Positions 2,362 through 37,388 of a stretch of 37,388 nt of DNA are shown piece after piece. Source of the stretch: an uncultured Acidimicrobiaceae bacterium (GTDB taxonomy: Bacteria; Actinomycetota; Acidimicrobiia; Acidimicrobiales; Ilumatobacteraceae); the NCBI GenBank assembly GCA_903919455.1, contig CAIXIJ010000036.1:1-37388 (forward strand), given 5' to 3'. A program made the position numbers and the translations under genes. Numbering within the stretch: the stretch's first letter is position 1; each line of letters opens with the position of its first letter. Below the pieces are notes generated by a model. That model was not told where the DNA came from. It saw only the letters and a list, made by a program, of their open reading frames with translations, and ran no database searches.

Positions 2362-2364
2362 GCG

Positions 2365-2370
2365 TACGAT
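2365..2370 (+). promoter_or_regulatory. Leaderless-type -10 (TACGAT)
   Basis: TACGAT lies 8 nt before the ATG at 2379 and there is no Shine-Dalgarno. Transcription would start at or next to the start codon. Confidence 0.5.
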
Positions 2371-2378
2371 GCCTCGCC

Positions 2379-3260: not shown

Positions 3261-3266
3261 GACAGG

Positions 3267-3590
3267 TCAGTCGTTGCGCAGCGCAGGCCGGTGCAGCACT
3301 GCGTTCGACGGCGCGAACTGCACGCCGTCGTCGGCGACCGATGCTGTGCCATCAATGACCAGGCTGTAGGCGGTGCCGTCGGCGCCTGGAAACACCATGC
3401 TCACCTGCGGCCGCGCCGCGGCGTTGGCCCGACTGCCTCGACCCGCCTGCAGATGGAACACACCGTCGCGATAGTCGGTGGGCACGGCGAGCGAATGCGC
3501 CACCTGCTGCTCGCCCACGGTGATGAAGTATCCCCACGGGTAGTTGGCCAACGAAGTGGCGAGGTCGGTGAGGTCGACGGGAATGCTCAT
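3267..3590 (-). CDS. Small pyridoxamine-phosphate-oxidase-fold protein
   Basis: 107 residues with the split-barrel pattern of the PPOX superfamily: an N-terminal 'WGYFITVGE' strand, a 'VFHLQAGRGSRANAAARPQVSMVF' type core (Arg/Ala loop before the strand) and a 'YSLVIDGTASV' strand. This superfamily binds FMN, F420 or haem; the sequence does not show which. The ATG at 3590 was chosen because the conserved fold begins there and a TACGCT box lies 7 nt upstream. The gene ends 6 bp from the convergent SDR gene. Substrate unknown. Confidence 0.75.
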   Translation of the reverse strand: MSIPVDLTDLATSLANYPWGYFITVGEQQVAHSLAVPTDYRDGVFHLQAGRGSRANAAARPQVSMVFPGADGTAYSLVIDGTASVADDGVQFAPSNAVLHRPALRND

Positions 3591-3597
3591 CGTCGAG

Positions 3598-3603
3598 AGC
3601 GTA
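3598..3603 (-). promoter_or_regulatory. Leaderless-type -10 (TACGCT)
   Basis: On the minus strand TACGCT ends 7 nt before the ATG at 3590, with no Shine-Dalgarno between. Confidence 0.5.
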
Positions 3604-3613
3604 CCGACCGGGG

Positions 3614-4090
3614 TCAGGGCCCTTCGGCCAGATCGGTATCCACGATGGCCTGATCCTCCGGGTCGGCGATGGGTGTGGCCTTGGCCGCCGCCCATGCCAC
3701 CGCTGCTTCGTCGGTACGACCCAGTGCCTGCAACGCGCGAGCGCGCACCTCGTGCGCGTACGCGAGGTCGAAGTCGGCGACTCCGAGTTCCAGACACAGC
3801 GCCATCGTGGCGTCGGCGTAGTGCAGCGCCCGTTCGGGTTGACCCGTGAGGTGGTGCACCTTCGACAACATGTAGCGGGCCCGCATCTCGTTCACCGGCG
3901 TGCGGCGCGCAGCGCGCTGCCAGTGATACGCCGATGCGTAAGCGCGACGCAGCAGTTCCTCATCGCGCTCGGGCGATGCCGGTTCACCCACGAGATCCCA
4001 GATGCTGTTGTTGGCCTCCACGCCGTAGGCGCGGTGTGCGGCCTCAATCGGGTCGTCGGCGGGTGCGTCGGTGGGTGCGTCGGTGCTCAC
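3614..4090 (-). CDS. Small TPR-like helical protein
   Basis: 158 residues from a GTG at 4090. An acidic/Pro/Ala N-terminus ('TDAPTDAPADDP') is followed by paired amphipathic helices with TPR-like spacing: 'ARYMLSKVHHLTGQPERALHYADATM' type and 'AYAHEVRARALQALGRTDEAAVAWAAA' type. These suggest two or three tetratricopeptide repeats and a protein-binding role. No catalytic motif is visible. A longer frame continues upstream to 4264 but runs into the peroxiredoxin gene and lacks family character. A CACAAT box 6 nt before the GTG is a weak version of the leaderless -10 seen elsewhere. Divergent from the peroxiredoxin gene; function unknown. Confidence 0.65.
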   Translation of the reverse strand: MSTDAPTDAPADDPIEAAHRAYGVEANNSIWDLVGEPASPERDEELLRRAYASAYHWQRAARRTPVNEMRARYMLSKVHHLTGQPERALHYADATMALCLELGVADFDLAYAHEVRARALQALGRTDEAAVAWAAAKATPIADPEDQAIVDTDLAEGP

Positions 4091-4128
4091 GCGACCATTG
4101 TGCCCGTTCCGCGACGGGCCGAAATCCT

Positions 4129-4151
4129 TTCCCGACCGGAATAGTCGGGAA
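4129..4151 (+). promoter_or_regulatory. 23-bp palindrome, probable operator of the peroxiredoxin
   Basis: TTCCCGAC, seven bases, then GTCGGGAA: perfect 8-bp arms. It lies just upstream of a candidate -10 (TATCGT, 4157-4162) and so overlaps the expected -35 position of the peroxiredoxin promoter. The position suits a transcription-factor site, perhaps redox-responsive. The regulator is not in the window. Confidence 0.5.
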
Positions 4152-4156
4152 TTAGA

Positions 4157-4162
4157 TATCGT
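4157..4162 (+). promoter_or_regulatory. Candidate -10 (TATCGT) of the peroxiredoxin gene
   Basis: TATCGT would start transcription near 4169, giving a ~34-nt leader that contains AAGGAG (4190-4195) 7 nt before the ATG. Unlike most genes here, this one has a leader and a strong ribosome binding site. Confidence 0.4.
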
Positions 4163-4202
4163 TGCACGTCGGAGCACATCCCTACTTCCAAGGAGCCCTG
4201 CC

Positions 4203-4838
4203 ATGACCGTTCGTCTCGGCGACATCGCCCCCGATTTCACCGCCCCCACCACGCAGGGCGACATCAGCTTTCACGAGTGGCTCGGCGACTCGTGGGGCGT
4301 GCTGTTCAGCCACCCGAGAGACTTCACGCCGGTCTGCACCACCGAGCTTGGCTACGTCGCCAAGATCAAGCCCGAATTCGACAAGCGCAACGTGAAGGTC
4401 ATCGGCCTGTCGGTCGACAGCGTCGAGTCGCACATCAAGTGGGAAGGCGACATTGGCGAGACCCAGGGCACCCCGGTGAACTTCCCGATGATCGGCGACC
4501 CCGATCGCACGGTGGCCGACCTGTACGACATGATCCACCCGAACGCCAACGACACCCAGACGGTGCGTTCGGTGTTCGTGATCGGACCCGACAAGAAGGT
4601 GAAGCTCACCATCACCTACCCGGCCAGCACCGGTCGCAACTTCGACGAGATCCTGCGCGTCATCGACAGCTTGCAGCTCACCGCCGGCTACAAGGTGGCC
4701 ACGCCGGTGAACTGGACCGACGGCGGCGACGTCATCATCGGCGCAGCGGTCAGCGACGAAGAGGCCAAGCAGTTGTTCCCGCAGGGTTGGACCACGGTGA
4801 AGCCGTACCTGCGAGTGCTGCCGCAGCCCAACAAGTGA
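4203..4838 (+). CDS. 1-Cys peroxiredoxin (Prx6 family)
   Basis: 211 residues; reduces hydrogen peroxide and organic hydroperoxides in the cytosol. The peroxidatic Cys45 lies in 'HPRDFTPVCTTE' (residues 37-48), the Prx6-type signature. The long C-terminal dimerisation extension ('TAGYKVATPVNW', 'GWTTVKPYLRV') is also typical of Prx6. Cys45 is the only cysteine in the protein, so there is no resolving Cys and an external thiol must reduce the enzyme. The ATG at 4203 is fixed by AAGGAG 7 nt upstream; the frame runs further upstream without family similarity. The upstream palindrome (4129-4151) suggests regulated expression. A hairpin terminator follows. Confidence 0.93.
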   Translation: MTVRLGDIAPDFTAPTTQGDISFHEWLGDSWGVLFSHPRDFTPVCTTELGYVAKIKPEFDKRNVKVIGLSVDSVESHIKWEGDIGETQGTPVNFPMIGDPDRTVADLYDMIHPNANDTQTVRSVFVIGPDKKVKLTITYPASTGRNFDEILRVIDSLQLTAGYKVATPVNWTDGGDVIIGAAVSDEEAKQLFPQGWTTVKPYLRVLPQPNK

Positions 4839-4869
4839 CCCACTGAGTCACCTCGTTTTCTTTCGCAGG

Positions 4870-4898
4870 GGCCCCGTCACCCACGAGGTGGCGGGGCC
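4870..4898. terminator. Hairpin terminator between convergent genes
   Basis: GGCCCCGTCACC pairs with GGTGGCGGGGCC (12 bp, one G-T) around a 5-nt loop, followed by TTT. It lies between the end of the peroxiredoxin gene and the end of the minus-strand DUF3052 gene. Confidence 0.75.
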
Positions 4899-4913
4899 TT
4901 TGCGCGCACTCAC

Positions 4914-5333
4914 TCACCGCTTCCAGGGCGGGCGGGTGTCCTTGCGCATCACGAAGCGCAAGGCGCTCCAGGTGTCGTCGATGGAGGCCAGCTTGTTGTC
5001 GAGCCAACCGGCCTTCATCATGTCGGCACGCACGATGTCTTCGGTGAGGTCGGTGTTCACGCCGCTGTTCTTCTTCGGCCATGCCACCCACACTTCACCG
5101 GCCGGGGCCGCGGCATCAGCCAACTGCGGCCACTTGGCCTTCATCCGTTCGCGTTCAGTGAAGAACGACACGACCACATCGATGGTGGGCATCAGGTTGC
5201 GCTGATGCACGGCCTCTCCCACGTCGCCCAGCGCCTGCTCGAACCCACGCGGCGCACCGACGAGCGTGAACACGATGTCGCCATGGATGCCGAGCTTCTT
5301 GTTCAACGGCGTGTTGCCAGTACTCGCGCTCAT
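4914..5333 (-). CDS. DUF3052-family protein
   Basis: 139 residues. The hallmark 'GEVWVAWPKKNSGVNTDLTED' region (written here only as its key residues: WPKK, GV, TDLTED) and the C-terminal 'ASIDDTWSALRFVMR' strand match the DUF3052 pattern as I know it. No catalytic residues are assigned to this family. The ATG (5331-5333) overlaps the stop of the upstream PPOX gene (TCAT on the plus strand), so translation is probably coupled. It is the last gene of the ABC transporter operon. Function unknown. Confidence 0.75.
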   Translation of the reverse strand: MSASTGNTPLNKKLGIHGDIVFTLVGAPRGFEQALGDVGEAVHQRNLMPTIDVVVSFFTERERMKAKWPQLADAAAPAGEVWVAWPKKNSGVNTDLTEDIVRADMMKAGWLDNKLASIDDTWSALRFVMRKDTRPPWKR

Positions 5334-5710
5334 TTCAACCCACCGTTACACAACACTCGGTCCACCTCGATCTCGACGACCACCCGGTCTACGCGCACCT
5401 TGGGCGGCCGGTAGCGACGAGCGTACGCATCCACAGCGTCAGATACCGACGTCGCGTCGGTGAGCAATCGCACGCTGCCCTCCAGAGTGACCCACCGGGC
5501 ACCGTCGAGTTGGGTGACGCTGGCGCGCCCACCGCGTGCGGCGTTCTTCGCCTTTACCGACGTGGAAAAGGTGATGACCCGCACATTGCCCTGATGCATG
5601 GTGAAGCCCACGGGCACGGCGTGCGGAGAGCCATCGGCGCGTTGAGTGACCAACGTGGCCAGGTGGCGTTCGGCGATGAAGTCCAGGAGGGCAGGAGAGA
5701 ACGTGTTCAT
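5330..5710 (-). CDS. PPOX-class (probably F420-dependent) oxidoreductase-like protein
   Basis: 126 residues with the split-barrel fold of the F420-type PPOX family. 'LLDFIAERHLATLVTQRADGSPHAVPVGF' type opening (residues 7-35), a 'VRVITFSTSVKAKNAARGG' type cofactor strand and loop, and 'RWVTLEGSVRLLTD' type strand occur in the usual order. The ATG at 5710 overlaps the stop codon of the preceding permease (ATGA), and its own stop overlaps the start of the DUF3052 gene. It therefore belongs to the ABC operon. The substrate is unknown. The family is often linked to F420H2-dependent reduction, or to binding without catalysis. Confidence 0.8.
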   Translation of the reverse strand: MNTFSPALLDFIAERHLATLVTQRADGSPHAVPVGFTMHQGNVRVITFSTSVKAKNAARGGRASVTQLDGARWVTLEGSVRLLTDATSVSDAVDAYARRYRPPKVRVDRVVVEIEVDRVLCNGGLK

Positions 5711-8247
5711 CCGTCGGCCGCAATCGCTCGCAACACGTTCAGACGAGTAGCCCGCCATGCGGGAATCACCGCTGCCGCCACGCCCGCCACGAAGGCCAAC
5801 ACCATGATCCACACGATGGAAGTGACCGGCACGGAGTACGCAGTGAGGCCCTGGTCGCGCAACGAGGCGATGACCACGTATCCCAACACCAGCCCCATCA
5901 GCACACCCACGAATGCACCGTAGACCGATGTGATGACACTCTCCCACCGCACCGTGGTTCGAACCTGCGCGCGGGTCATGCCCACGGCGCGCAACAGACC
6001 GATCTCGCGCCGCCGCTCGTACACGGCGAGCAGCAGTGTGATGACGATGCCGAACGCAGCAATCACGATGCTCAACAGCAGCAACCCATAGATGAACGCC
6101 AGGCTGCGGTCCACCAGGTCGGCCCGACTGTTGATGAACTGCTGCTTGTCTTGCAGGGTGCCGATGCCGTAGTCCGACGCTGCCTTTCCGACGACGGCAC
6201 GAAACTGCGCGTCGTCGACGCCGGGCGCGCGAGTGAGCGACACGAAGCCCGCAGGCGTGGTGATGCTGGTGTTCTTGAACGTGTCGCGGTCGTAGATGCG
6301 AGCCGTTCGAATCAGTTCCGTGGTCTGGAAGATGCCCTCTACGCGCAACGGCAGCACCACGCCATCAACACGCAGCGCCAACACCTCACCGAGGCCTAGG
6401 CCGCGCCGCTTGGCTTCACCTTCGCTGATCAGCACGCCCTCGGTGGTGAGCGCGTCGATGCTGCCCCCCGTGAAGGTGATGTCGATGAGACCCTTCACAG
6501 TGGCGGGGTCTACCACCGCGCCGAACGCAGGCTTGCCCTCCGCATCGGCCACGCCGCGGGCGAAACCCAACCCGGTGGCCACCCCCACTTCGGGCATACC
6601 GTTGAGCTGATCGACGAACTCCTGACCGAAACTCACCGCGCCACCCTTGGTGGAGTTGATCACGTAATCGCCGATGAAGCTCTCGCCCACCGCAGTCTGA
6701 ATCTGTTCCTTGATCGAAGCAGCGAACACCGATGCACCCGTCACCAACGCAACACCGATGAGCACCGGGGCCGCAGTGCGAGCGGTGCGTCGAGGGTTGC
6801 GCTGCACGTTGCCTCGCGCCATCGTGCCGGTGATGCCGCGAAGGCGCTGCACGGGCGCACCGATGAAACGAGCAATGGGGCGCGCGAGCACCGGGCCCAT
6901 CAGCAGCAGGGCTGCAAAGAGCGCCACCACGCCGAGCGCCAGCAGGATGGCATCACCGCCGTTCATCACGACCACGATGGCTGCAGCACCCACCAGAGCG
7001 CTCACCGCTGCCGCAACGATACGACGCCGGGGGTTGCGCACCCGCTCGAGCACTGCGTCGGTCATGGCGGCAACCGGAGGCACGCGGCCGGCGCCGATGG
7101 CGGGGCCGAGCGCGGCAACCAAACTGGCGACCAGGCCGGCCACCAGCGTGATCACGATGGTGGGCGTCTCCACCGCCAGGCCGCGCGCCGGGATGTCGTA
7201 GTCCAGCGCCGCCAGCAAGGCCTTGATGCCCGAGGCCAGTGCCATACCGCCCACCAACCCGAGCAACGAACCGATCAGGCCCACCGCAGCGGCCTCCAGC
7301 AACATCGTCCACGTGACCTGCCGACGGCTGGCACCCAGAGCGCGCAGCAGGGCGTTTTCCCGTTGCCGCTGTGCAGCGGTGATGGAGAAGACGTTGTAGA
7401 TCACGAACATGCCCACACCGAGTGCGATGAACGAGAACATCGCTAGGAACACAGTGAGGAAGCTCAGCGTCTTCTGCACCTCGGTCTGGGCCTGCTTGGT
7501 GATCTCGGCCGACGTGAGCGTTTCGGCCACGTCGGGGTTCAGCGTGTTCCGCAAGCGCGTCACCAGTTCGGTGGCAGGCACGGAACCATCACCCTTCACG
7601 AGCACGGCATCGATGAAGCCAGCTTTGGCGATGAACTCGCTCGCTGTGGGCGCGTCGAACAACGCCCACGTGGCATTGCCCGGCGAGATGATGTTGTCGT
7701 ACTCGACGATGCCGACCAACGTGAACTCTCGCTTGCCGTTGTCGGAGTTCACCTTCACCCGGTCGCCCAGCACGTAACCACCGTCGTTGGCAGTGAGCAC
7801 ATCAAGCGCCAACTCATCGCCACCAACGGGGAGACGCCCCGCCTGCACCTTCCACACCGACAGCGCGCCCTCGTTCACCGTCGCGCCATTCGTGGGGGCG
7901 GTTGGCCGTTCGATCGGCTCACCGCTCTTGCCGATCACCACGGCATCGCCAGTCACCGACGCTTGAGCATCCGCCACACCGGGAATGGCCTTCACTTCGT
8001 CGACGATGTCGGCCGGAAGTCGATCGCGGTTCTCCAGTCCGAACAGGTTCTCGACGGAATTCGAACTCTGCACGTATGCATCGACGCGGTCGTAGACGTT
8101 CGCGAACAGCGCATCGAACGTGCGCGAGATGGTGTCCTTGAACACGAACGTGCCCGACAGAAAGGCCGTGCTGGCCACGATGGCCAACGAGGTGAGGACC
8201 AACCGACCCCACCTCGCCGCAATGCTGCGCAGCGCCAGACGAAACAT
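5707..8247 (-). CDS. ABC transporter permease, FtsX/MacB type (second of two)
   Basis: 846 residues from the ATG at 8247. There is one N-terminal membrane segment (~15-36), an extracytoplasmic MacB-PCD-like domain (~40-250), a first FtsX three-helix unit (~262-395) containing 'RENALLRALGASRRQV', paired middle helices (~410-455), a second periplasmic-type domain, and a C-terminal FtsX unit (~720-846) with 'RREIGLLRAVGMTRAQV'. This duplicated architecture is typical of actinobacterial MacB/LolCE-like exporters of lipids, peptides or drugs. Its start overlaps the stop of the upstream permease by one base (TGATG) and its stop overlaps the next gene (ATGA), so the operon is translationally coupled. 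Substrate not predictable. Confidence 0.9.
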   Translation of the reverse strand: MFRLALRSIAARWGRLVLTSLAIVASTAFLSGTFVFKDTISRTFDALFANVYDRVDAYVQSSNSVENLFGLENRDRLPADIVDEVKAIPGVADAQASVTGDAVVIGKSGEPIERPTAPTNGATVNEGALSVWKVQAGRLPVGGDELALDVLTANDGGYVLGDRVKVNSDNGKREFTLVGIVEYDNIISPGNATWALFDAPTASEFIAKAGFIDAVLVKGDGSVPATELVTRLRNTLNPDVAETLTSAEITKQAQTEVQKTLSFLTVFLAMFSFIALGVGMFVIYNVFSITAAQRQRENALLRALGASRRQVTWTMLLEAAAVGLIGSLLGLVGGMALASGIKALLAALDYDIPARGLAVETPTIVITLVAGLVASLVAALGPAIGAGRVPPVAAMTDAVLERVRNPRRRIVAAAVSALVGAAAIVVVMNGGDAILLALGVVALFAALLLMGPVLARPIARFIGAPVQRLRGITGTMARGNVQRNPRRTARTAAPVLIGVALVTGASVFAASIKEQIQTAVGESFIGDYVINSTKGGAVSFGQEFVDQLNGMPEVGVATGLGFARGVADAEGKPAFGAVVDPATVKGLIDITFTGGSIDALTTEGVLISEGEAKRRGLGLGEVLALRVDGVVLPLRVEGIFQTTELIRTARIYDRDTFKNTSITTPAGFVSLTRAPGVDDAQFRAVVGKAASDYGIGTLQDKQQFINSRADLVDRSLAFIYGLLLLSIVIAAFGIVITLLLAVYERRREIGLLRAVGMTRAQVRTTVRWESVITSVYGAFVGVLMGLVLGYVVIASLRDQGLTAYSVPVTSIVWIMVLAFVAGVAAAVIPAWRATRLNVLRAIAADG

Positions 8248-10784
8248 CAGGTGGTGGCGATCGCTTCCAAGATGTCGGCCTTCGCTGCTCGACGCGCAGG
8301 AAACACTGCGGCCCCGGCGGCAAACACCAGAGCCAGCGCCCCGGCCACCACGATCGTGGAGATCGGCAGCGAGAACACGCTGAGGCCCTGGTCCTTCAGC
8401 GCCGCCACGATGATCCACCCGAGCATCACGCCCAGCACGGTTCCTGCGATGACGCCGACCACCGCGGTGACCATGCTCTCCCACAGCACCGCACTGCGCA
8501 CCTGACGGCGCGTGGTTCCCACCGCTCGCAGCAGACCGAGCTCGCGACGCCGTTCGTAGACCGCCAGCATCAGGGTGATGACGATGCCGATGATGGCGAT
8601 GAAGATGCTCATGCCCAGCAGTGCGTAGATGAAGTTGAGGAACCCATCGATCTGCTTGCTCTGGTCGGCGATGTACTCATCGCGACTCTGCAACTTCAGC
8701 GACGGGTAGGTATCGACGACGGCTGCGATCGCGGCCGAGTTCGCCGCCGTAACACCACCCGGGGTGCGGATGAAGACACCGATGTCGAACACCGGCACAG
8801 GCGAGCCGTCGAAGATGGCTCGATCGACGATCAAGTTGCCGAACAACTTGGTGTCGAAGATGCCCTGCACGGTCAACTTGAGATCGATCCCGTCGATGGT
8901 GCGAGCCTGGACGACATCGCCCACCGACAGCGCGTCGCGATCGGCCTTTGTCTTCGAGACCAGGATGCCGTCTTTGGCGAGATCGGCAAAGCTGCCGGCC
9001 ACGAACGGAATGTCGAGCACGTTCTGGGCGTCGGCGGGGCGCAGGGCGATCACCTGCTTTGCCCTGTAGTCGACCTTCTCCTGGATCTGCAAAGCCGTGG
9101 CCGCAAGGCCCATCACATCGCCCACCTGGGCTGCCTTCAGGTCGTCAGCTAGCGACGCCGGCACGCTGGCGCCGTTGTTGCCTTGCTTGGCCGTCACCAC
9201 GTAGTCGCCGTTGAACGACTTGCCCACCACGTCGTGTGTGGTGGCCTTGGCCGACGCACCGAGCGTGGCCACGCCGATCAAGAGTGCCAGGCCCACAGCG
9301 AGCGCACCCGCAGTGAGTGCCGTGCGCTTCGGGTTGCGCGCTGCGTTGCGACCCGCCATGGTGCCTGAGGCCCCGCGGAGCTTGGTGAGCACCGGCGTGG
9401 CGAGGCGAGCCACCGGAGTGGCCAAGAACGGACCCAGGGCGATGAGCGCGAGGAACAACGCCGATGCAGCGCCGCCGAGAGCCATCGTGTTGCCGCGCAG
9501 GCCCAGCCACACGAACAGCGCGGCGCTGACGACGGCCAACGTACCCACCACCTTGCGGGTGCGGCTGACATCGGCATGGTCGATGGCCACGTCGCGCATC
9601 GCTGCCAGAGGCGGCACGCGACCGGAACGGATGGCGGGAGCAATTGCGCACACAATGGTGACCAGCACGCCCACGATCAACGTGACCACGAAACCAGTGG
9701 GGTGAATGACGAGAGTGGATTGGCCCGGCCCGATGCCGGCCTTGTTCATCGCCCAGAGGATGAACCACGCCAGCCCCACACCGCCCGCGCAGCCGAGCAG
9801 CGAACCGCCCAGGCCCACCACGATGGCCTCGATGAACATCGAGCGCGTCACCTGGCTACGGCTGGCGCCCACCGCCCGCAGCAATGCATTCTCCCGCGTT
9901 CGCTGGGCGGCACTGATGCTGAAGACGTTGTAGATGATGAAGCTGCCGACGAACAGCGAGATGAGGGCGAAGATCGACAGGAAGATGGTGATGAAGCTGA
10001 GCGTCTTCTCCACCGCGCTCTGGTTCTCGGAGATGATCTGCTGACCGGTGAGCACTTCCACCTCGGGGTCGGCCAACGCAGCGTTGATGGAAGTGGCAAC
10101 CTCCTGCTGTGTCTGGCTGCCGTCGCCGCGCACCACGATGTTGTCGATCTTCGTGGTGTCGCCGATGACGAACTCCTGCGCCGTCGGCAGGGTGAACAGT
10201 GTCCAGGTGGCCCCACCCGACGTGGCCTTCCCCGCGAACTTCGCGATGCCCACCACGGTGAACTGGCGAGGCTTTCCTTGCGAGGTGACGGTGACTTCAT
10301 CACCGAGATGCAGAGGACCGAGTGTGGCCGACGACTTGTCGACCACCACTTCCGTGGGCGACGAAGGAGCGTGGCCCGAATCCAGGCGCCACGGCGAACC
10401 CTCGCTGTCGATCCATGCACCGGCGAACTTGGGCGGACCATCCTGGCCAATCACCTTGCCGTCCTTGGTGGTGACGGTGGCGCTGCCCTGCACGTCGCCG
10501 TGGGCTTCGACGACGCCCGGAACCTTGAGGACCGCATCCACCAGGGACACGTCGATCCGGTCGCGAATGTCCTGGCCGAAGTCGCCCTCGACGACGTTGT
10601 TGGAGCGCACGAACGCATCGGTCTTCGCGTAGGCGCTGGCAAACATCTGGTCGAAGCTGCCCTTGATGGTGTCGGTAAACACGAACACGCCCGACAGGAA
10701 CGCCGTGCCGGCGATGACGGCCGTAGCGGTGAGGAGCAACCGTCCCTTCCGCGACCAGATGTTGCGGAGGCTGAGCTTGAACAT
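8247..10784 (-). CDS. ABC transporter permease, FtsX/MacB type (first of two)
   Basis: 845 residues with the same layout as its downstream neighbour: N-terminal helix, MacB-PCD-like domain, FtsX unit with 'RENALLRAVGASRSQV', middle helices, second extracytoplasmic domain, and C-terminal FtsX unit with 'RRELGLLRAVGTTRRQV'. The two permeases have clearly similar N-termini (MF[RK]L-L-R-I...RG/GRL) and C-termini, so they arose by tandem duplication. They probably act as a heterodimer with the single ATPase encoded just upstream (3 bp gap). Located in the cytoplasmic membrane; substrate unknown. Confidence 0.9.
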   Translation of the reverse strand: MFKLSLRNIWSRKGRLLLTATAVIAGTAFLSGVFVFTDTIKGSFDQMFASAYAKTDAFVRSNNVVEGDFGQDIRDRIDVSLVDAVLKVPGVVEAHGDVQGSATVTTKDGKVIGQDGPPKFAGAWIDSEGSPWRLDSGHAPSSPTEVVVDKSSATLGPLHLGDEVTVTSQGKPRQFTVVGIAKFAGKATSGGATWTLFTLPTAQEFVIGDTTKIDNIVVRGDGSQTQQEVATSINAALADPEVEVLTGQQIISENQSAVEKTLSFITIFLSIFALISLFVGSFIIYNVFSISAAQRTRENALLRAVGASRSQVTRSMFIEAIVVGLGGSLLGCAGGVGLAWFILWAMNKAGIGPGQSTLVIHPTGFVVTLIVGVLVTIVCAIAPAIRSGRVPPLAAMRDVAIDHADVSRTRKVVGTLAVVSAALFVWLGLRGNTMALGGAASALFLALIALGPFLATPVARLATPVLTKLRGASGTMAGRNAARNPKRTALTAGALAVGLALLIGVATLGASAKATTHDVVGKSFNGDYVVTAKQGNNGASVPASLADDLKAAQVGDVMGLAATALQIQEKVDYRAKQVIALRPADAQNVLDIPFVAGSFADLAKDGILVSKTKADRDALSVGDVVQARTIDGIDLKLTVQGIFDTKLFGNLIVDRAIFDGSPVPVFDIGVFIRTPGGVTAANSAAIAAVVDTYPSLKLQSRDEYIADQSKQIDGFLNFIYALLGMSIFIAIIGIVITLMLAVYERRRELGLLRAVGTTRRQVRSAVLWESMVTAVVGVIAGTVLGVMLGWIIVAALKDQGLSVFSLPISTIVVAGALALVFAAGAAVFPARRAAKADILEAIATT

Positions 10785-10787
10785 GGC

Positions 10788-11531
10788 TCAGTCTCCGAAA
10801 TGCTTCATGCGGTCCAGCACGCGTTCGGCGGTGGGTTCGTGCATCTCGTCGACCACCTTGCCGTCGGCGAGGAAGATGACTCGATCGGCATAGCTGGCAG
10901 CAACGGGATCGTGGGTGACCATCACGATGGTCTGCCCCAACTCGCGCACTGCACGCCGCATGAACGCCAGGATCTCCGCCCCGGTGCGACTGTCGAGGTT
11001 GCCGGTGGGCTCGTCGGCGAAGATGATCGTGGGCTGGCTGGCAAGCGCTCGCGCCACAGCAACACGCTGCTGCTGGCCGCCGGAGAGTTCGCTAGGACGG
11101 TGACGCAAACGGTCGCGCAACCCCACCGTGTCGATCACGTTGTCGATCCAGGTCTGGTCGCCCTTCGTGCCACCCAGCAACAAGGGCAGGGTGATGTTCT
11201 CCTCGGCGGTCAGTGTGGGCACCAGGTTGTACGCCTGAAAGATGAAGCCGACTGCGGTGCGGCGAAGTTCCGTGAGTTGCTTGTCGTTGAGATCGGCAAG
11301 GGCCGTATCGCCGATGTGCACGGCGCCACTGGTGAGCGAATCCAGACCTGCCAGGCAGTGCATCAGCGTGCTCTTGCCGGAGCCCGAAGGGCCCATGATG
11401 GCGGTGAACTTGCCGGCCTCGAAGGTGACGGATACGCCGTCGAGCGCACGCACTTCGCTGTCGCCGGCGCCGTAGATCTTGCTTGCGTCGATGGCCCCGG
11501 CTGCCGCCAGCGTGGTGGGAGTGTCAGTCAT
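10788..11531 (-). CDS. ABC transporter ATP-binding protein (MacB/LolD family)
   Basis: 247 residues. Walker A GPSGSGKST (~52-60), Q-loop 'FQAYNLVPTLTAEEN', signature LSGGQQQRVAVARA, Walker B 'IIFADEPTGNLD' and the H-loop 'VTHD' are all intact. The 'DEPTGNLDS' and 'AYNLVP-L-TA-EN' features mark the MacB/LolD/FtsE branch that works with FtsX-type permeases. Both permeases lie immediately downstream. First gene of a five-gene operon: ATPase, permease, permease, PPOX protein, DUF3052. The ATG at 11531 is divergent from the cyclase gene, with the promoters in the 150 bp between. Confidence 0.95.
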   Translation of the reverse strand: MTDTPTTLAAAGAIDASKIYGAGDSEVRALDGVSVTFEAGKFTAIMGPSGSGKSTLMHCLAGLDSLTSGAVHIGDTALADLNDKQLTELRRTAVGFIFQAYNLVPTLTAEENITLPLLLGGTKGDQTWIDNVIDTVGLRDRLRHRPSELSGGQQQRVAVARALASQPTIIFADEPTGNLDSRTGAEILAFMRRAVRELGQTIVMVTHDPVAASYADRVIFLADGKVVDEMHEPTAERVLDRMKHFGD

Positions 11532-20143: not shown

Positions 20144-20164
20144 TCACCCCGTCCCGATCACCCG

Positions 20165-20218
20165 GGGCTTCTCGGTGGGATTCTTCCCATTTCGGCTTCT
20201 CGGTGGGTTGCTTCCCGG
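20165..20218. repeat. Two direct copies of a 24-bp sequence
   Basis: GGCTTCTCGGTGGGATTCTTCCCA begins at 20165 (written here as its key core, TTCTCGGTGGG) and a close copy, differing at about three positions, begins at 20195. The period is 30 bp. The second copy is the left arm of the hairpin at 20197-20243, so duplication of a terminator arm is likely. Confidence 0.6.
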
Positions 20219-20243
20219 AAACCGGGAACCAACCCACCGAGAA
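20197..20243. terminator. Long hairpin between convergent genes
   Basis: TTCTCGGTGGGTTG (20197-20210) pairs perfectly with CAACCCACCGAGAA (20230-20243). A C-C mismatch and a further 7-bp stem (TTCCCGG / CCGGGAA) enclose an AAA loop. It stands between the membrane-protein gene and the flavodoxin-like gene. It has no T-tract on either strand, so it may be a terminator of the U-less type or another RNA structure. Confidence 0.6.
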
Positions 20244-20257
20244 CGACTGCCCGAACC

Positions 20258-21224: not shown

Positions 21225-23948
21225 TCAGGACAGTTTCTTGAGGGGAGCCCACGCGAGCGACAGGTGCTTCGTTCCAGCCGACGGGAATCGGATGGTGGCC
21301 TCGGCCTTGTCGCCCTGACCACGGATCTCGAGGATGATTCCCTCGCCGAACGCGGGGTGTTCCACGTCGTCGCCCACCTTCAACCCGAGCTCCTGCGAGT
21401 TCGCGGGCGTTTGCGCATTTCGCCGGCCGGCGTTGACGGCCGCGTCGACTATGCGCTCGCGGTGCCAATCGACATCGTCATCCGGGTCGAACCCGCTGAC
21501 CGGGCTACGGCTGCCGCTGTCGCGGCGCCGGAACTCGGGCGGCGATGCGTACTCGTCGCGCCCGCGATAGCTCTGGCGGCCGTAGTTGTTGCGCCCGCCG
21601 ACGTTGCCAGCGTGCTCCACCAGATCAGCGGGAATCTCATCGAGGAAGCGCGACGGAGGGTTGTAGTTGGTGGTGCCGAACAACTGCCGGCTCCACGCAT
21701 GGCTGAGGTGCAGTTTCTGCTGAGCACGAGTGATGCCCACGTACGCCAGGCGGCGTTCTTCCTCCATCTCGGTGGGTTCTGAAAGCGCCCGACTGTGCGG
21801 GAACACACCCTCTTCCATGCCCAGCACGAACACCACCGGATACTCCAGACCCTTCGCGCTGTGCAGGGTCATCAGCACCACCCGGTCGTCGTCGTCGATC
21901 TCGTCGGTGTCGGCCACCAACGCCACCTGTTCGAGGAACTCGTCGATGCGGGTGAACTCGCGCGCCGAGCCAACCAGTTCGCCCAGGTTCTCCAGACGAC
22001 CGGCCGCCTCCACCGTCTCCTCGGCCTCCAGCTCGGCGCTGTAGCCGCTGTCGTCGAGCGCCATGCGCAACAGGTCGCCTGGACCCGTGGACTCGTCGGC
22101 CGCCGCCACCGCCAGGCTGTCGAGCAGGTCGACGAAGCTGGCCACACCACGCGCTGCGGGCCCGGTGAGGCCCGCCTCCTGCGATCGCCGCATGGCATCC
22201 ACGAACGAGATGCCCTCAGCGCGCGCCAACGCGTCGAGCTTCGCCACCGACGTGTCGCCCACACCTCGCTTGGGCACGTTCAGCACCCGTTTCACGCTCA
22301 CCTCGTCGGCCGGGTTCACCACAGCCTTCAAGTAGGCCATGGCGTCCTTCACCTCGCGGCGGTCGTAGAAGCGTGTTCCGCCCACCACCTTGTAGGGAAT
22401 GCCGAACCGCATGAACGCTTCCTCGAGCACACGGCTCTGGGCGTTCGTTCGGTAGAAGCACGCCATGTCGCGCCAGATGAAGTGCTGCTCCTGCGCAGTC
22501 TGCTGGATGGTGCGCGCCACCCAGGTGGCCTCATCACCTTCGTCCTCGGCGTGATAGCGCACGATGCGAGCGCCCTGCCCCTTGTCGCTCCAGAGATGCT
22601 TCTCCTTGCGACCGGGGTTGTGGGCGATGACCGCGTTGGCCGCATCGAGGATGGTCTGGGTGCTGCGGTAGTTCTGGTCGAGCACGATGGTGGTGACGTC
22701 GTCGAACACCTCTTCGAACTGCAGGATGTTGCGCACATCTGCCCCGCGCCACCCGTACACGCTGTTGTGCACCAACACACCGTTGGCGACGTAGTGATGC
22801 GTCGGTTCCACCTCGAGGTCGTACACGGGCCCGTCGTAGTGCTCGATCTCCACCCGTTCCACGGTGCGCCGCGCCAGTTCCCCGTCGACCAACACGAGCA
22901 CCTCTTTGCCGACCTGCACATGCCGCAATGCGGTCTCCGCCCCCGTCGGGCCGACCGGCAACACGTGATCCGGCGTGCCAGCCACAGCAGCACCGTTGAC
23001 GAAAATCCGAACAACATCGCCGACGTAGCGCCCTCTATGGATTCGCCGCACATCGCCCTTCTCGACCGTTCCGAAGTCGCCGCTACCGAGCACGGTGTCG
23101 CCAACTTGGATCTGCTCGATGGGCACCGCACCGTCGAGCGTGCTGATCATCGTTCCGGGGGGCAGGCATTGGTCGCCGTCGCCCACGATGGTGATGTTCT
23201 CGTGTCCAGCAGCCAACTGCAGGGCGATCTCGTTCTGGGCGGTATTGGTGTCTTGGTACTCGTCGATGAGCACGTGCGCGAACCGCTGCTGGTAGTGCGC
23301 CAGCACTTCGGGATGCTGCCGGAACAGCACCACCACATTCATCAGCAGGTCGTCGAAGTCCATCGCCCCGGCCTTCAGCAGGCGGGCCTGGTAGTCCTGG
23401 TAGATCTCGGCGTGCTTGCGTTCAAAGATGTTGCTCGCCCGGTCGAGCGCCATTGCAGGCGTGACCAGTTCGTTCTTCCAGAGACTGATCTGGCCATGCG
23501 CACCTCGAGGCGGGAAGCGCTTGGCATCCAGCCCGAGATCGCGCACCACATAGCCAGCAAGGCGCTGAGCATCGGCCTGGTCGTAGATGCTGAACGTGCG
23601 CGGGTAACCCAACGCTTCGGCGTGAGCGCGCAGGATGCGCACGCAGGCCGAGTGGAACGTGCACACCCACATCGCCTTCACCACCGGGCCCACCAGCGCA
23701 GCCACGCGGTGCTTCATCTCCTGCGCGGCCTTGTTGGTGAACGTGATGGCCAAGATGCTGGTGGGCGAGGCACCCTCCTGGATGAGGTGAGCGATGCGAT
23801 GCGTGAGCACGCGCGTCTTACCGGAGCCGGCGCCCGCCACCACCAGCAACGGGGTACCCCGATGCACCACCGCGTCGAGTTGGTCGGGGTTCAACGACTG
23901 AAGGTCGAGCGGGTCGAGATCGAACTGGAGGCGGCCGTCGTCGCTCAT
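21225..23948 (-). CDS. pcrA: PcrA/UvrD-type superfamily 1 DNA helicase containing an intein
   Basis: 907 residues, of which 135 are an intein (residues 261-395), leaving a normal 772-residue helicase. Helicase motifs: Q-motif 'LNPDQLDAV' (~19-27), Walker A AGAGSGKT (38-45), Ia 'AITFTNKAAQEMK', motif II LIDEYQDTN (227-235), motif III VGDGDQ (255-260) then, after splicing, SVYGWRGAD, motif IV 'LDQNYRST', motif V 'VVLMTLHSAKGLEYPVV' region, motif VI 'RLAYVGITRAQ'. The C-terminal ~50 residues form the Tudor-like domain that binds RNA polymerase in PcrA ('KVGDDVEHPAFGEG'). It unwinds DNA 3' to 5' in repair and replication-conflict resolution. ATG 23948 is chosen with a TAGGAT box 9 nt upstream; the gene is divergent from the CLC gene. 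Confidence 0.95.
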   Translation of the reverse strand: MSDDGRLQFDLDPLDLQSLNPDQLDAVVHRGTPLLVVAGAGSGKTRVLTHRIAHLIQEGASPTSILAITFTNKAAQEMKHRVAALVGPVVKAMWVCTFHSACVRILRAHAEALGYPRTFSIYDQADAQRLAGYVVRDLGLDAKRFPPRGAHGQISLWKNELVTPAMALDRASNIFERKHAEIYQDYQARLLKAGAMDFDDLLMNVVVLFRQHPEVLAHYQQRFAHVLIDEYQDTNTAQNEIALQLAAGHENITIVGDGDQCLPPGTMISTLDGAVPIEQIQVGDTVLGSGDFGTVEKGDVRRIHRGRYVGDVVRIFVNGAAVAGTPDHVLPVGPTGAETALRHVQVGKEVLVLVDGELARRTVERVEIEHYDGPVYDLEVEPTHHYVANGVLVHNSVYGWRGADVRNILQFEEVFDDVTTIVLDQNYRSTQTILDAANAVIAHNPGRKEKHLWSDKGQGARIVRYHAEDEGDEATWVARTIQQTAQEQHFIWRDMACFYRTNAQSRVLEEAFMRFGIPYKVVGGTRFYDRREVKDAMAYLKAVVNPADEVSVKRVLNVPKRGVGDTSVAKLDALARAEGISFVDAMRRSQEAGLTGPAARGVASFVDLLDSLAVAAADESTGPGDLLRMALDDSGYSAELEAEETVEAAGRLENLGELVGSAREFTRIDEFLEQVALVADTDEIDDDDRVVLMTLHSAKGLEYPVVFVLGMEEGVFPHSRALSEPTEMEEERRLAYVGITRAQQKLHLSHAWSRQLFGTTNYNPPSRFLDEIPADLVEHAGNVGGRNNYGRQSYRGRDEYASPPEFRRRDSGSRSPVSGFDPDDDVDWHRERIVDAAVNAGRRNAQTPANSQELGLKVGDDVEHPAFGEGIILEIRGQGDKAEATIRFPSAGTKHLSLAWAPLKKLS
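22764..23168 (-). other. Mini-intein inserted in motif III of the PcrA/UvrD helicase
   Basis: 135 in-frame residues lie between Gln260 and Ser396 of the helicase. They begin with Cys1 in a block-A Hint motif ('CLPPGTMISTLDG', then 'IQVGDTVLGSGD'). They carry block B 'AGTPDHVL' (the TxxH His at intein residue ~69), block F 'VYDLEVEPTHHYVANG' and end in the block G dipeptide His-Asn followed by Ser+1. All residues for class 1 splicing are present. The ~45-residue linker between blocks B and F has no room for a homing endonuclease. Splicing would join GDGDQ to SVYGWRG, restoring helicase motif III. Rough GC of the segment (~65%) is close to the surroundings, so there is no sign of recent entry. 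Confidence 0.93.
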
Positions 23949-28892: not shown

Positions 28893-28973
28893 CCGTGCGA
28901 GCTGGGCCCGCCATCACGGCACCGATTGCCCCACTTGGCGGCGAGAGATTCCGCGCCCACGGGCGCGATTCAC

Positions 28974-29038
28974 GCCACATCCGGCACTTTCCTCGCCCGT
29001 GGGTGCGTTGTGAGCCAAATCTGGCAGGTTTCGCGCCC
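28974..29038. repeat. Two degenerate direct repeats upstream of the OYE gene
   Basis: A 25-bp unit at 28974-28998 (GCCACATCCGGCACTTTCC...) and one at 29014-29038 (GCCAAATCTGGCAGGTTTC...) match at about 19 of 25 positions with a 40-bp period. A third, looser copy begins near 28928. They lie directly upstream of the OYE promoter, so a regulator-binding role is possible. Confidence 0.5.
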
Positions 29039-29065
29039 AACCTGGGGTGGTGCGGCGGGGTTGGG

Positions 29066-29071
29066 TAGGGT
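29066..29071 (+). promoter_or_regulatory. Leaderless-type -10 (TAGGGT) of the OYE/FadH-like gene
   Basis: TAGGGT lies 9 nt before ATG 29081. Confidence 0.45.
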
Positions 29072-33166: not shown

Positions 33167-33191
33167 TCCACCGCTGGTGAGCGAAAACGGG

Positions 33192-33217
33192 CGAACCCGC
33201 CCTTTCGGGCGGGTTCG
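33192..33217. terminator. Bidirectional hairpin terminator
   Basis: CGAACCCGCCC pairs with GGGCGGGTTCG, a perfect 11-bp stem with a TTTC loop. Reading leftward it is followed by CCCGTTTTCGC, so it can end the rpsG transcript as well as the purEK-GNAT transcript. Confidence 0.8.
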
Positions 33218-33258
33218 GACCGGATTGTTCGTTCAGTGTGGCGAGATCGCCAGGGCAC

Positions 33259-33729
33259 TCACCAACGGTAGTGAGCGAATGCCTTGTTGCTCTCGGCCAT
33301 CTTCTGCATGTCGTCGCGACGCTTGATGGCAGCGCCCAAACCGTTTGCAGCGTCCATCACTTCGTTGGCGAGGCGCTCGGCCATCGTCTTCTCGCGACGG
33401 GCACGGCTGAAGTCGACCAGCCAGCGGATGCTGAGCGTGGCGGCACGGCGAGGACGAACCTCCACCGGCACCTGGTAGGTGGCGCCACCCACGCGGCGGC
33501 TACGCACCTCGAGCGGCGGCTTGATGTTGTCGCATGCGCGCTTCAGAGTGGCGACGGGCTCGGAGCCAGTCTTCTCTTCCACCATCTTCAGGGCGTCGTA
33601 CACGATCTTCTCTGCCACGGAACGCTTGCCGTGCAGCATGACCTTGTTGACGATCTGGGTGACGAGCGTCGACCGGTAGATGGGGTCGGGCATAAGCTCG
33701 CGACGCTGGGCGGGACCTTTACGGGGCAT
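33259..33729 (-). CDS. rpsG: 30S ribosomal protein S7
   Basis: 156 residues, the standard length. It starts '[20 protein letters not shown]' (key residues MPRKG, PDPIYRS) and contains '[16 protein letters not shown]', '[18 protein letters not shown]' region and '[20 protein letters not shown]' region, all diagnostic of S7. It binds 16S rRNA and nucleates the 30S head. It follows rpsL by 26 bp. A terminator, not fusA, follows it. Confidence 0.98.
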
Positions 33730-33755
33730 CGGTGTTCCTTACCGTTCTCTGCGAC

Positions 33756-34127
33756 TTACTTCGCGGCCTTGGCGCCGTAACGGCTGCGGGCCTGCTTGCG
33801 GTTCTTCACGCCGGCTGCGTCGAGCGCGCCGCGGATGATCTTGTAGCGCACACCCGGAAGGTCGCGCACACGGCCGCCACGCACGAGCACGATGCTGTGC
33901 TCCTGCAGGTTGTGGCCCTCGCCCGGGATGTAGGCGGTGACTTCGACGCCGCTGGTGAGACGCACACGCGCCACCTTGCGGAGTGCCGAGTTCGGCTTCT
34001 TGGGGGTGTTGGTGTACACGCGGGTGCACACGCCGCGACGCTGCGGCGACCCCTTCAGGGCCGGCGTCTTGGTCTTCGAGAACTTGGTGCTGCGGCCCTG
34101 ACGGACCAGCTGCTGAATGGTGGGCAC
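33756..34127 (-). CDS. rpsL: 30S ribosomal protein S12
   Basis: 123 residues from a GTG at 34127, with AGAGG upstream. It has '[12 protein letters not shown]' start, the decoding-site '[11 protein letters not shown]' motif with both lysines, and '[12 protein letters not shown]'. The wild-type lysine in 'TPKKPNS' is the streptomycin-sensitive state. The gene is separated from rpoC by 185 bp holding a strong hairpin, so it likely has its own promoter. First gene of an rpsL-rpsG pair. Confidence 0.98.
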
Positions 34128-34246
34128 AGTGGCAACCTCTACGAGAACAATCGGAATCCGGTACCGGCAATCGGTACACAGGACTCTGCAATGCTAGGGG
34201 CGCGCGTCGGGGCACGGCAACCTGCCGCGTCGCATACCGAACGCGG

Positions 34247-34278
34247 ACGAGCCCGGGGCAAGAATACCCCGGGCTCGT
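34247..34278. terminator. Hairpin between rpoC and rpsL
   Basis: ACGAGCCCGGGG pairs perfectly with CCCCGGGCTCGT (12 bp) around an 8-nt loop. An outer GAACG/CGTTC pairing across a small internal loop strengthens it. It lies 35 bases after the rpoC stop on the minus strand and lacks a T-tract. It probably ends or attenuates rpoC transcription before rpsL. Confidence 0.65.
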
Positions 34279-34312
34279 TCACGTTCGTTGGACCCTCGAA
34301 AGGGCGTCTGAA

Positions 34313-35655
34313 TCAGGCGTCGGCCGGAGCCTCGCCCACAGCATCGGAGCTGTAGGTGCCGTGGATGTTCGCCAGGTAGGCAGCCGGATCTTCGTCGGCA
34401 TCGGTGCTGAAGTAGGCCATCGGCTGGTACTCCGGGGCATCGATGGTGAAGTCGCGGTAGCGCATCATGCCGGTACCGGCCGGGATGAGCTTGCCGATGA
34501 TGATGTTCTCCTTCAGGCCGAGCAGGCTGTCGCCCTTGCCGTCGATGGCGGCCTCGGTGAGCACACGAGTGGTCTCCTGGAAGGAGGCAGCCGACAGCCA
34601 GCTTTCGGTGGCCAGCGATGCCTTGGTGATGCCCATGATCTCCGGGCGACCCTCAGCGGGCTTCTTGCCCTCTTCCACCATGCGGCGGTTCGTGTCGCGG
34701 AACACCTTGGCATCGGCACGCTCGCCGGGAAGGAAACCGGTGTCGCCGGGCTCCTGCACGCCAACGCGGCGGGTCATCTGACGCACGATCAGCTCGATGT
34801 GCTTGTCGTGAATGGACACACCCTGGTCGCGGTACACCTTCTGCACCTCTTCGACGAGGTAGGTCTGGGTCTCGCGGATGCCCTTGATCTCCATCAGTTC
34901 CTTCGGATCGAAGGGACCGTCGGTGATCGGCTCGCCAGCCTTCACGTCCTGGCCATCCACCACGATCGGACGCGAACCGGTGGGCAGCACCACCTGGTGC
35001 TCTTCACCGGCGTCGTCGATGACGGTGACCGGGATGCCCTTGCCCTCGTCGTCGCCGATGCGCACGATGCCCGTGGCACGAGCCAGACGGGCCGAACCAC
35101 GCGGCGTACGGCTCTCGAAGAGCTCCACGACGCGGGGCAAACCGCCGGCGATGTCCTTACCGGCCACACCACCGGTGTGGAAGGTACGCATGGTGAGCTG
35201 GGTACCGGGCTCGCCGATGGACTGAGCGGCGATAACGCCCACAGCCTCACCGAGCTCGATGCTCTTGCCCGTGGCCAGCGAACGGCCGTAGCAGCGGGCG
35301 CACACGCCCAACTCGGCATCGCACGTGACGACCGAGCGAACGCGAACACGACTCACCGAGTCGTCGTCGCGCAGGGCGGCCATCTCGATGTCGCCGATGA
35401 GCGTGTTGCGCTCGAGCACCGTGCCATCCGACAGCGTGACAGCCTGCGACAACGCACGACCGAACAGCTTGGTCTCGAGGTACGCACGCTTGTTGGCGGT
35501 GTCGACACCCACGTTGTCGATCCAGAGGCCCAGGTTCGAGCCGCAGTCGATCTCACGGATGATGAGTTCCTGTGCAACGTCGACCAGACGACGGGTGAGG
35601 TAGCCCGAGTCGGCGGTACGCAGAGCGGTGTCGACGAGGCCCTTACGAGCACCCG
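34313..35655 (-). CDS. rpoC: RNA polymerase beta' subunit, C-terminal third only
   Basis: About 447 residues of the beta' C-terminus, out of a normal ~1300. It begins at the conserved 'GARKGLVDTALRTADSGYLTRR' trigger-loop region (given here as GARKGL...DSGYLTRR). It contains the second zinc site (Cys in 'REIDCGS', then 'CDAELGVCARC'), 'GEPGTQLTMRTFHTGG', 'HIELIVRQMTRRV' and the usual end. The catalytic NADFDGD motif, bridge helix, clamp and rpoB are all missing because the sequence changes abruptly at ~35,655 to a protease-like gene in the same frame. The frame itself continues to 36289, but the upstream part is not RpoC. Transcribed into rpsL-rpsG, the usual str-region order. Confidence 0.95.
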
Positions 35656-35665
35656 GGGTGGGATG
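35640..35665. other. Probable chimeric junction inside rpoC
   Basis: RpoC homology stops at Gly (codon 35651-35653). The residues normally before 'GARKGL' are 'F-I-(S/N)-T-H', but here they read 'KYHPTP' and continue a two-domain retropepsin-like protein. The join keeps the frame by chance, with only a few bases of possible shared sequence. The right side also uses strong Shine-Dalgarno sites (for example GGAGGA at 36844-36849), unlike the leaderless left side. Confidence 0.8.
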
Positions 35666-36289
35666 GTACTTCAGAAGAGCGTCATTGAGCGCCATGTTCG
35701 CGATGCAGTTCTGCGCGCCGGTATCCAGCATCAGCCGGGCCGAGACGCTGCCAACCTTGCCGTCGATCTCCGCGAGCAATCCGTTGCGCACGCGCATGTT
35801 GCCTAGCGCGCTCGCGCGCACCTGCCGCTTCGTCGGTTCGATCCGCACCTGCCTGTTGCGAATGTCGAACACCAGCCTGCGTCCGACAAACACGTCAGCG
35901 CCCAGAATCCCGTCTTCGCGCGCCAGCTCGGTGTCGGGCAGAACGGCGACGTCGAGATCCGGTCTGGTCACCGCACCGGTCTGCAGCTTGTCGAGCCGCA
36001 CCAGCGGCATGCTCGCGGTGCCAGTTGTTCCGACAACCGTGACCTGACCCAGTGGCCGCGCACCAAGCGTCGTCATGTGGCGTGCGGCGATCACCGTCGT
36101 GGTCGATCCGGTGTCGACCATGAACTGGAAGGGGCCCATCCCGTTGATCATCACTTTCGCCGTGGGACGGCCATAGGCATCGACCCACGCATCGAGCAGG
36201 GAAGTCGCATCATCTTCAGGCTGGGGCATACTGCGCGCCGCGATCGGGGCCTGCGCCAGCGCATGCCCTGCAAGACCCAGCGCAGGCAA
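35654..36289 (-). pseudogene. Retropepsin-like aspartyl protease, truncated at its 3' end by the junction
   Basis: About 212 residues from TTG 36289 remain. The N-terminus looks like a Tat-type or Sec signal ('TRRLIIGSLPALGLAGHALA' reading from about 36,350) ending at an A-x-A site. Two retropepsin motifs are seen: 'FMVDTGSTTTVI' (DTGS) and 'RLMLDTGAQNCIA' (DTGA), as in the two-domain periplasmic aspartyl proteases of sphingomonads. 'GILGADVF' follows the first. The protein is cut soon after the second DTG and runs into RpoC. No convincing ATG is visible at the signal peptide, so the start is uncertain. It is probably from another organism. Confidence 0.75.
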
Positions 36290-36428
36290 TGAGCCAATGA
36301 TCAGACGTCGCGTAAGCTGTGTGATGGGCGTCCTCCCGCTAACAGCACTGGCGGGCCTTCTGCGAGCAGCATGATCCGCGCCGGCAGGCGCTGCAAGATG
36401 GTGCTTCAGTCGCGAGCGCGAGCTGTCG

Positions 36429-36839
36429 CTAGACCCCCGGCAGCGCCGCTGCCAGCACCATCGCGATACCGGCGAACGACACCGTCCACGCCAGCGTCCT
36501 CACCACGGGCAACCCCAGCGCATAAATCGGAAGGAACGCCACGCGACCCCAGAAGTAGAGCTGCGCGCCGAGCCCAGCCAAATCCGAATCCTGGACCACG
36601 GACGCCTCGACAAGGATGGCCGCAACAAACAGCGGGAACGTCTCGACGAAGTTCTTCCACGCGCGATCCAGCCGCGCCGCCACCTTGCCAGCATCGGCGG
36701 GCGGCTCGTCGCGCGGCCCCATCGCCCATGGCAAGCCTCGGCCCAGAACCGATGGGATGACGGCTGCCAGCAGGTACACGGTCCCAAGAACCGCGCTCGC
36801 CCAGAGCATCGTGAATTCAGTTGAGCCAAGATCAGGCAT
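36429..36839 (-). CDS. MAPEG-family membrane protein
   Basis: 136 residues with four membrane segments of the MAPEG family (eicosanoid and glutathione metabolism). The 'KNFVETFPLFVAA' helix (~64-76) and 'LYFWGRVAFLPIYALGLP' (~95-112) are the family signatures. In bacteria the role is unknown; some bind glutathione. ATG 36839 has GGAGGA four nt upstream, a strong ribosome binding site not seen in the main part of the window. Adjacent to the protease fragment; consistent with an alphaproteobacterial source. Confidence 0.87.
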   Translation of the reverse strand: MPDLGSTEFTMLWASAVLGTVYLLAAVIPSVLGRGLPWAMGPRDEPPADAGKVAARLDRAWKNFVETFPLFVAAILVEASVVQDSDLAGLGAQLYFWGRVAFLPIYALGLPVVRTLAWTVSFAGIAMVLAAALPGV

Positions 36840-36928
36840 GTGTTCCTCCCCGGATCGTTTGGAGGGAGGCTACGCTATCCTGCGCGGGTAACAATCGGCG
36901 CCGTTGGGGCAGCCGATCTTTGGCGGCG

Positions 36929-37150
36929 CTACTTCGCGCGGACGATCTTGCTGATCATCAGGGGCGGCAGGCCGGAGCGTTCCGAGATCTGGCGGTCCTG
37001 CTCTTCCAGAGCCTTCCGGATAGCGCCTTCGCCATCATACGGATCATCCACGACCTCCAGCGGAACCTTGCGGTTCGACTTCTGGCTGCCGTCTTCATAG
37101 GTCACGTTGAAAAACACGAATTCGGTGCGAGCCGTCGGCTTCTTCGCCAT
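36929..37150 (-). CDS. Small basic/acidic protein of unknown function
   Basis: 73 residues. It starts 'MAKKPTARTEFVFFNVTYEDG' (quoted as MAKKP and VFFNVTYEDG), then 'SNRKVPLEVV', and 'GAIRKALEEQDRQISERSG' type helix. It appears to be one beta strand pair and a helix, cytosolic. GGAG lies 6 nt before ATG 37150. I do not recognise the family with certainty. Probably alphaproteobacterial. Confidence 0.6.
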   Translation of the reverse strand: MAKKPTARTEFVFFNVTYEDGSQKSNRKVPLEVVDDPYDGEGAIRKALEEQDRQISERSGLPPLMISKIVRAK

Positions 37151-37313
37151 GGGAGTCTCCGTTGGCTGCCAAATAGCCGGTTTGGGGGTAGCTCAGCGCG
37201 GGCCGGCCGGAGGGCGCCCGCGAGGGTCAATTGGCCGAATTCGGCTTGATCGCAAGGCCCCTGCGACAACGCGCGCTATCCGGGCGCGCCGTCTGGCAAT
37301 GCTTTTGGGAAGA

Positions 37314-37388
37314 CTAGGCGGCCACCGTGGCGCGTTCCGCCATTGCGCAACCTTCGACCAGTTCGGCCATCGCGGCTGCACGCGCGCC
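37314..37388 (-). CDS. C-terminal end of a gene entering from the right (partial)
   Basis: On the minus strand a frame from the window edge reads 'GARAAAMAELVEGCAMAE' and on to a TAG (37314-37316), about 24 residues. It has coding-like composition but is too short to identify. The region 37151-37313 has no gene that I can support. Confidence 0.3.
   Translation of the reverse strand, partial: GARAAAMAELVEGCAMAERATVAA

Follow-up and report, generated by a model that had tools for sequence, protein, structure and literature searches.

A protease-RpoC reading frame in an Acidimicrobiaceae metagenome bin is almost certainly a chimera of two genomes

Introduction

Does a single reading frame that starts out as an aspartic protease and finishes as the last third of RpoC stand for a gene, or for two genomes that were joined on their way into a database? 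The question is raised by the minus strand of a metagenomic contig, of which we analysed a stretch of 37,388 nucleotides (the window), and in which positions 34313-36289 form one open frame of 658 amino acids from a TTG start (728 codons from stop to stop). A sequence-only reading of the window had described this frame as a two-DTG protease joined to RpoC and had put it down to a probable fault of assembly. Here we trace both halves of the frame to their relatives and to the other contigs of the same bin (G000; 3.55 Mb in 150 contigs, 97.18% complete and 2.07% contaminated), and weigh the assembly explanation against those in which the frame is real.

Results

The description of the frame as one open frame made of a two-DTG protease and the last third of RpoC is confirmed by its matches to PF13650 and TIGR02386. 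Its N-terminal part is an aspartyl protease (PF13650, 1.1e-18 at residues 45-133; PF13975 also matches) and carries the two DTG motifs of a PF13650 aspartic protease at residues 59 and 189, while a third DTG (residue 516) lies inside the RpoC part. Residues 210-612 correspond to positions 740-1146 of the 1147 positions of TIGR02386, and the frame scores 520.1 bits with this model, under the cut-off of 963.5 that a functional RpoC should reach. Also in line with what had been claimed, the RpoC part is devoid of its active site, the catalytic motif NADFDGD being absent from the frame, and the C-terminal part of the protease is incomplete if a 320-residue relative (see below) is used as a yardstick. 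Judged by these comparisons, both halves of the frame are incomplete as proteins. A putative signal peptide can be read by eye at the N-terminus. That the frame is open across the join is weak evidence in this DNA, since its G+C content is about 65% and the antisense strand, too, is open through the join, in a frame of 615 codons.

Both halves meet at 35659..35661, where Hyphomonadaceae homology ends and rpoC homology starts, and which we regard as the false join. The alignment to a contig from a Hyphomonadaceae metagenome-assembled genome (CANJXY010000099.1; here L025) has its boundary at 35659 and rpoC identity to another species of the bin's own genus (G007) starts at 35661, which leaves a perfect overlap of 3 nt only. 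On the protease side, homology to L025 ends at frame residue 210, 19 residues past the second DTG, and this endpoint matches residue 222 of the 320 in the L025 protease, the rest of which is replaced by RpoC. In RpoC, the break lies within the segment ...NFREGLETLEYFIATPGARKG... (shown as ...NFREGLETLEYFIA|TPGARKGLVDTALRT...), which we take to be the bridge helix, and the RpoC half aligns to chain 8k60_D from residue 848 of 1,299. The earlier placement of the RpoC start in the trigger loop therefore has to be given up: the motif TMRTFHTGG, presumably the trigger loop, sits at frame residue 366, 153 residues after GARKG at residue 213, and the join is upstream of it.

Left of the join, the window holds what looks like the 3' third of the native rpoC (34313..35661, minus strand; TIGR02386 positions 740-1146 of 1147), whose 5' end is cut by the false join, followed by its native neighbours rpsL (33756-34127, minus; TIGR00981) and rpsG (33259-33729, minus; TIGR01029). 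Over the 1349 bp of 34313-35661, the window and contig C200 of G007 agree at 98.1%, with no mismatch in the 120 nt of rpoC that adjoin the join; C200 is collinear with 33181-35670 of the window at 98.0%, and its frame reads on upstream through another 264 residues of ordinary RpoC until the contig ends. Further away from the join, the left part is genuine genome context: most of 4100-34300 tracks contigs of G007 at 87-98% (the comparison covers the window from 4100 on). Among the 40 relatives searched, 35 gave a match to the query, and in all 19 loci that were read (the best 19 of the 35 matching relatives) the sequence just before the join point on the upstream side is ordinary RpoC. An RpoC-like similarity of protease residues 116-209 to relatives was set aside as over-extension of the alignments, being weak and gapped next to a near-identical RpoC half.

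The order of genes beyond rpsG differs in G007: its GNAT gene is on another contig than rpsG, beside which PadR-like and ABC-transporter-like ORFs lie. A second breakpoint at 33174-33181, suspected from this order, was rejected: the rpsG-GNAT adjacency of the window is kept in five other genomes of the same genus (G003, G008, G010, G013 and G014), so that it is G007 which is the odd one at this place.

Right of the join, 35659-37388 aligns as one block to L025 (1745 columns, 78.9% identity, 24 gap openings), and gene order and strands agree between the two, with a protease, a MAPEG protein, a small ORF and the terminal part of another ORF. The apparently foreign genes, all on the minus strand, are the 5' two-thirds of the two-DTG aspartic protease (35659..36325; PF13650, PF13975 and homology to L025), a MAPEG-family membrane protein (36429..36839; PF01124, 1.3e-17; 118 of 136 residues shared with L025) and an ORF of 73 residues (36929..37150), 63 of them identical to L025, that has no match in Pfam or NCBIfam. 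The protease shares 86% of its residues with the L025 protein over 210 amino acids, and the latter (L025:3308-4270, 320 residues) continues past the join. Hyphomonadaceae belong to the Hyphomonadales within the Alphaproteobacteria in NCBI taxonomy; the right-hand genes had been called sphingomonad-like, which is borne out at the level of the class and has to be replaced by Hyphomonadaceae at that of the family. A closer source was sought in 105 Hyphomonadaceae genomes, and 15 gave any match, none above 79% over most of the query, from which it follows that the true source genome is not among these 105.

Two observations on the protease gene may be added. The TTG that opens the ORF is at 36289, and the position aligned with the ATG of the L025 protease, which follows a Shine-Dalgarno site, reads ATC in the window (36323-36325) after GGGAGG; this ATC may be a sequence error, a variant or a non-standard start. 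In addition, the protease part matches three places within 4 kb of one Hyphomonadaceae contig (G144:C509) and two within 2 kb of another (G139:C495), which suggests that tandem copies of the two-DTG protease may occur in some members of the family.

What became of the remainder of rpoC can be followed on another contig of the bin. An intact second rpoC, for which the sequence-only reading had proposed to look, was not found in the bin: the only two TIGR02386 matches are both partial, positions 740-1146 on the contig studied here (C36) and 2-869 on C76, where the match runs to the contig end. The true allele is thus implied by two pieces only, and the absence of an intact copy fits a broken assembly. 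C76 has the NADFDGD motif in its rpoC and a complete rpoB-like ORF of 1,219 residues, which we assigned from its sequence and its position beside rpoC, so that the true continuation of the rpoC tail lies on this other contig, together with rpoB. That rpoB is absent, as had been stated, accordingly holds for the contig under study and fails for the bin.

Over 10 kb (823-10849), C76 and G007 agree at 97%, and C76 would therefore come from the species of the bin or a close one. Its rpoC end (C76 1-391) is only 86.5% identical to G007, and in steps of 100 alignment columns identity drops from 94-100% to 85, 84 and 79% just beyond the point equivalent to the join. C76 and the window differ at a single position in the initial 85 nt past the join. 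On these alignments, the rpoC end of C76 is itself mosaic, its last ~390 bp being a divergent allele. It is thus at a stretch conserved and common to related genomes that both contigs part from their correct partner.

Base composition changes near the join as well. We used a third-order Markov log-likelihood ratio per base, in which a model of the bin is subtracted from a Hyphomonadaceae model trained on L026. The right-hand 1.73 kb score +0.0229, 19 left-hand blocks of 1730 bp (1-32870) have a mean of -0.0347 (SD 0.0097, maximum -0.0174), the rpoC tail scores -0.0357 and four L025 blocks range from +0.0209 to +0.0372, in a test whose training sequence L026 contains a stretch 72% homologous to the window and whose own model included all of C76. 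The outcome is the same with both models retrained after removal of all window-homologous stretches: the right part is at +0.0197, the left blocks at a mean of -0.0403 (SD 0.0112, maximum -0.0200), the rpoC tail at -0.0413 and six C76 blocks between -0.0106 and -0.0322. With a single change point allowed, the best position is 35708. Two observations speak against a uniform shift. Within the protease, windows of 300 bp are uneven, some being near zero or negative (35800-36100, +0.0009; 35950-36250, -0.0138). Plain tetranucleotide distances do not set the right-hand 1.73 kb apart: they lie 0.320 away from the bin's own profile, a value that the left blocks also span (0.165-0.367, measured against a profile of which they are part), and 0.203 away from a Hyphomonadaceae profile in which L025 itself is included. 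The composition shift close to the join is thus carried by the Markov ratio and the change point.

Translation signals had also been set against each other, with strong Shine-Dalgarno sites on the right and a leaderless left part. The right-hand genes do have clear sites (GGGGAGGAACAC-ATG and CGGAGACTCCC-ATG). On the left, inspection by eye agrees for the purK-like gene at 31557 and the methylase at 28871, where no site is visible, and disagrees for rpsG and sucC, which have AAGGA/AAGGAG; rpsL has a weaker AGAGG. As an argument for a chimera we consider this contrast weak.

The window contains other elements away from the join. A palindromic intergenic repeat of ~100 bp at 28935-29066, built around GCGCCCACGGGCGCG and TGCCA/TGGCA, is dispersed through the bin in 21 matching pieces (71-100% identity, the window copy counted) and occurs several times in G007. 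Nine aligned copies give a consensus hairpin with double changes in 3 of 20 pairs and a slightly unfavourable covariation term (+0.42); nothing in the window reaches the gathering scores of Rfam. Another dispersed repeat, which is short (~80 bp, ~20162-20247), has 74-94% matches on more than 10 G007 contigs and, because it is matched on both strands, is palindromic. Finally, an insert of 135 residues (22764-23168; site GDGDQ|C...HN|S) interrupts the gene of a UvrD/PcrA helicase (21225-23948, minus). Intein and Hint models match this insert weakly, all below curated cut-offs, and it looks like a putative mini-intein devoid of a homing endonuclease.

Discussion

Our findings leave little doubt that the protease-RpoC frame is no gene and stems from an inter-genome chimeric contig, an artefact of metagenome sequencing or assembly. 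The flanks come from different genomes and are separated by one sharp switch (98.1% identity to G007 on one side, 78.9% to a Hyphomonadaceae genome on the other). This homology switch, together with the switch in composition, the rpoC pieces and mosaic end of C76 and the unbroken RpoC of relatives, supports the assembly chimera that had been proposed from the letters.

How might such a contig have come about? The first 35.66 kb belong to the binned bacterium and terminate in the 3' third of its own rpoC. The last 1.73 kb are those of a Hyphomonadaceae bacterium that presumably lived in the same community, and they begin inside its two-DTG protease gene. The two pieces are by chance in frame, and so the frame of 658 residues appears; its product is likely made by no cell. 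Probably, the assembly lost the correct path at the conserved rpoC stretch of ~85 nt that co-occurring species share, and a chimeric read, or an overlap of very few bases, then carried the contig on into unrelated DNA. The upstream rpoC and rpoB would have ended on C76, the end of which carries another rpoC allele; we infer that C76 and the contig studied here are from one species. As to the technical step, a perfect overlap of 3 nt would point to a chimeric read or molecule, bridging a spot at which assembly was in a tangle already, rather than to a simple repeat error with long k-mers.

Could the join nevertheless be real? Illegitimate recombination or horizontal transfer may have brought Hyphomonadaceae DNA into one rpoC, with an intact second rpoC elsewhere. 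Foreign DNA in genomes is not unusual, and the join is in frame and carried by one contig. Yet the two partial matches are all that a bin rated 97.18% complete has of rpoC, none of the 19 relative loci read has the insertion, the foreign block extends to the contig end, both genes are cut mid-domain, and the ORFs at the join, on inspection of the ORF list, include no transposase or integrase. Nor does one insertion explain why C76 has a mosaic end at the same point. To our minds, a real insertion is therefore very improbable. Mis-binning alone, with a sound contig that belongs wholly to another organism having such a gene, could draw on the contamination estimate of 2.07%, but the split is within the contig, which follows the bin's genus from 4100 to 35661 (87-98% to G007) and Hyphomonadaceae over its last 1.73 kb; we give this hardly any weight, even less than an insertion.

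Natural RpoC splits and RpoB-RpoC fusions exist, and with a continuous frame of 658 residues that has protease and polymerase segments one may think of a functional protein, be it a split RpoC or a protease-polymerase fusion. Against this, the protease stops at the equivalent of residue 222 of its relative's 320, the RpoC part has no NADFDGD and is cut in a segment that is unbroken in each of the 19 relative loci read, and the halves carry the homology and composition of different bacteria; moreover, with the putative signal peptide, part of an RNA polymerase would be sent out of the cell. Of all the explanations considered, a functional protein strikes us as the most far-fetched. Taken as a biological proposal, a lineage with a Hyphomonadaceae block in one rpoC copy, or with a two-piece RpoC of which one piece is fused to an exported protease, is likewise extremely unlikely.

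The chimeric contig, then, implies that there is no biological novelty in the fusion frame, and flagging it as such keeps a false 'protease-RNA polymerase fusion' out of protein databases. For the bin, it means that two contigs have wrong ends at one rpoC stretch, so that rpoC taken from this bin as a marker gene would mix organisms.

Set beside bacterial RpoC (TIGR02386), the frame keeps positions 740-1146, in DNA that is 98.1% identical to that of a species of the same genus, yet differs by having none of the N-terminal two-thirds including NADFDGD, which are on C76. Similarly, it resembles the two-DTG protease of L025 (PF13650, Asp_protease_2) in 86% identity over 210 residues, both DTG motifs and the same neighbours, and departs from that protein of 320 residues in that the sequence after the equivalent of residue 222 is RpoC. 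Chimeric contigs are described in the metaMIC (PMC9661791) and GUNC (PMC8201837) papers; in the CAMI datasets of the former, no error is more frequent than inter-genome translocation, and the latter regards misassemblies as relatively rare compared with mis-binning. As in the inter-genome chimeras of these papers (PMC9661791, PMC8201837), fragments of different genomes are joined in one contig at a single breakpoint. What sets our case apart from typical chimeric contigs is a join that is in frame, lies within an essential gene and has a perfect overlap of just 3 nt.
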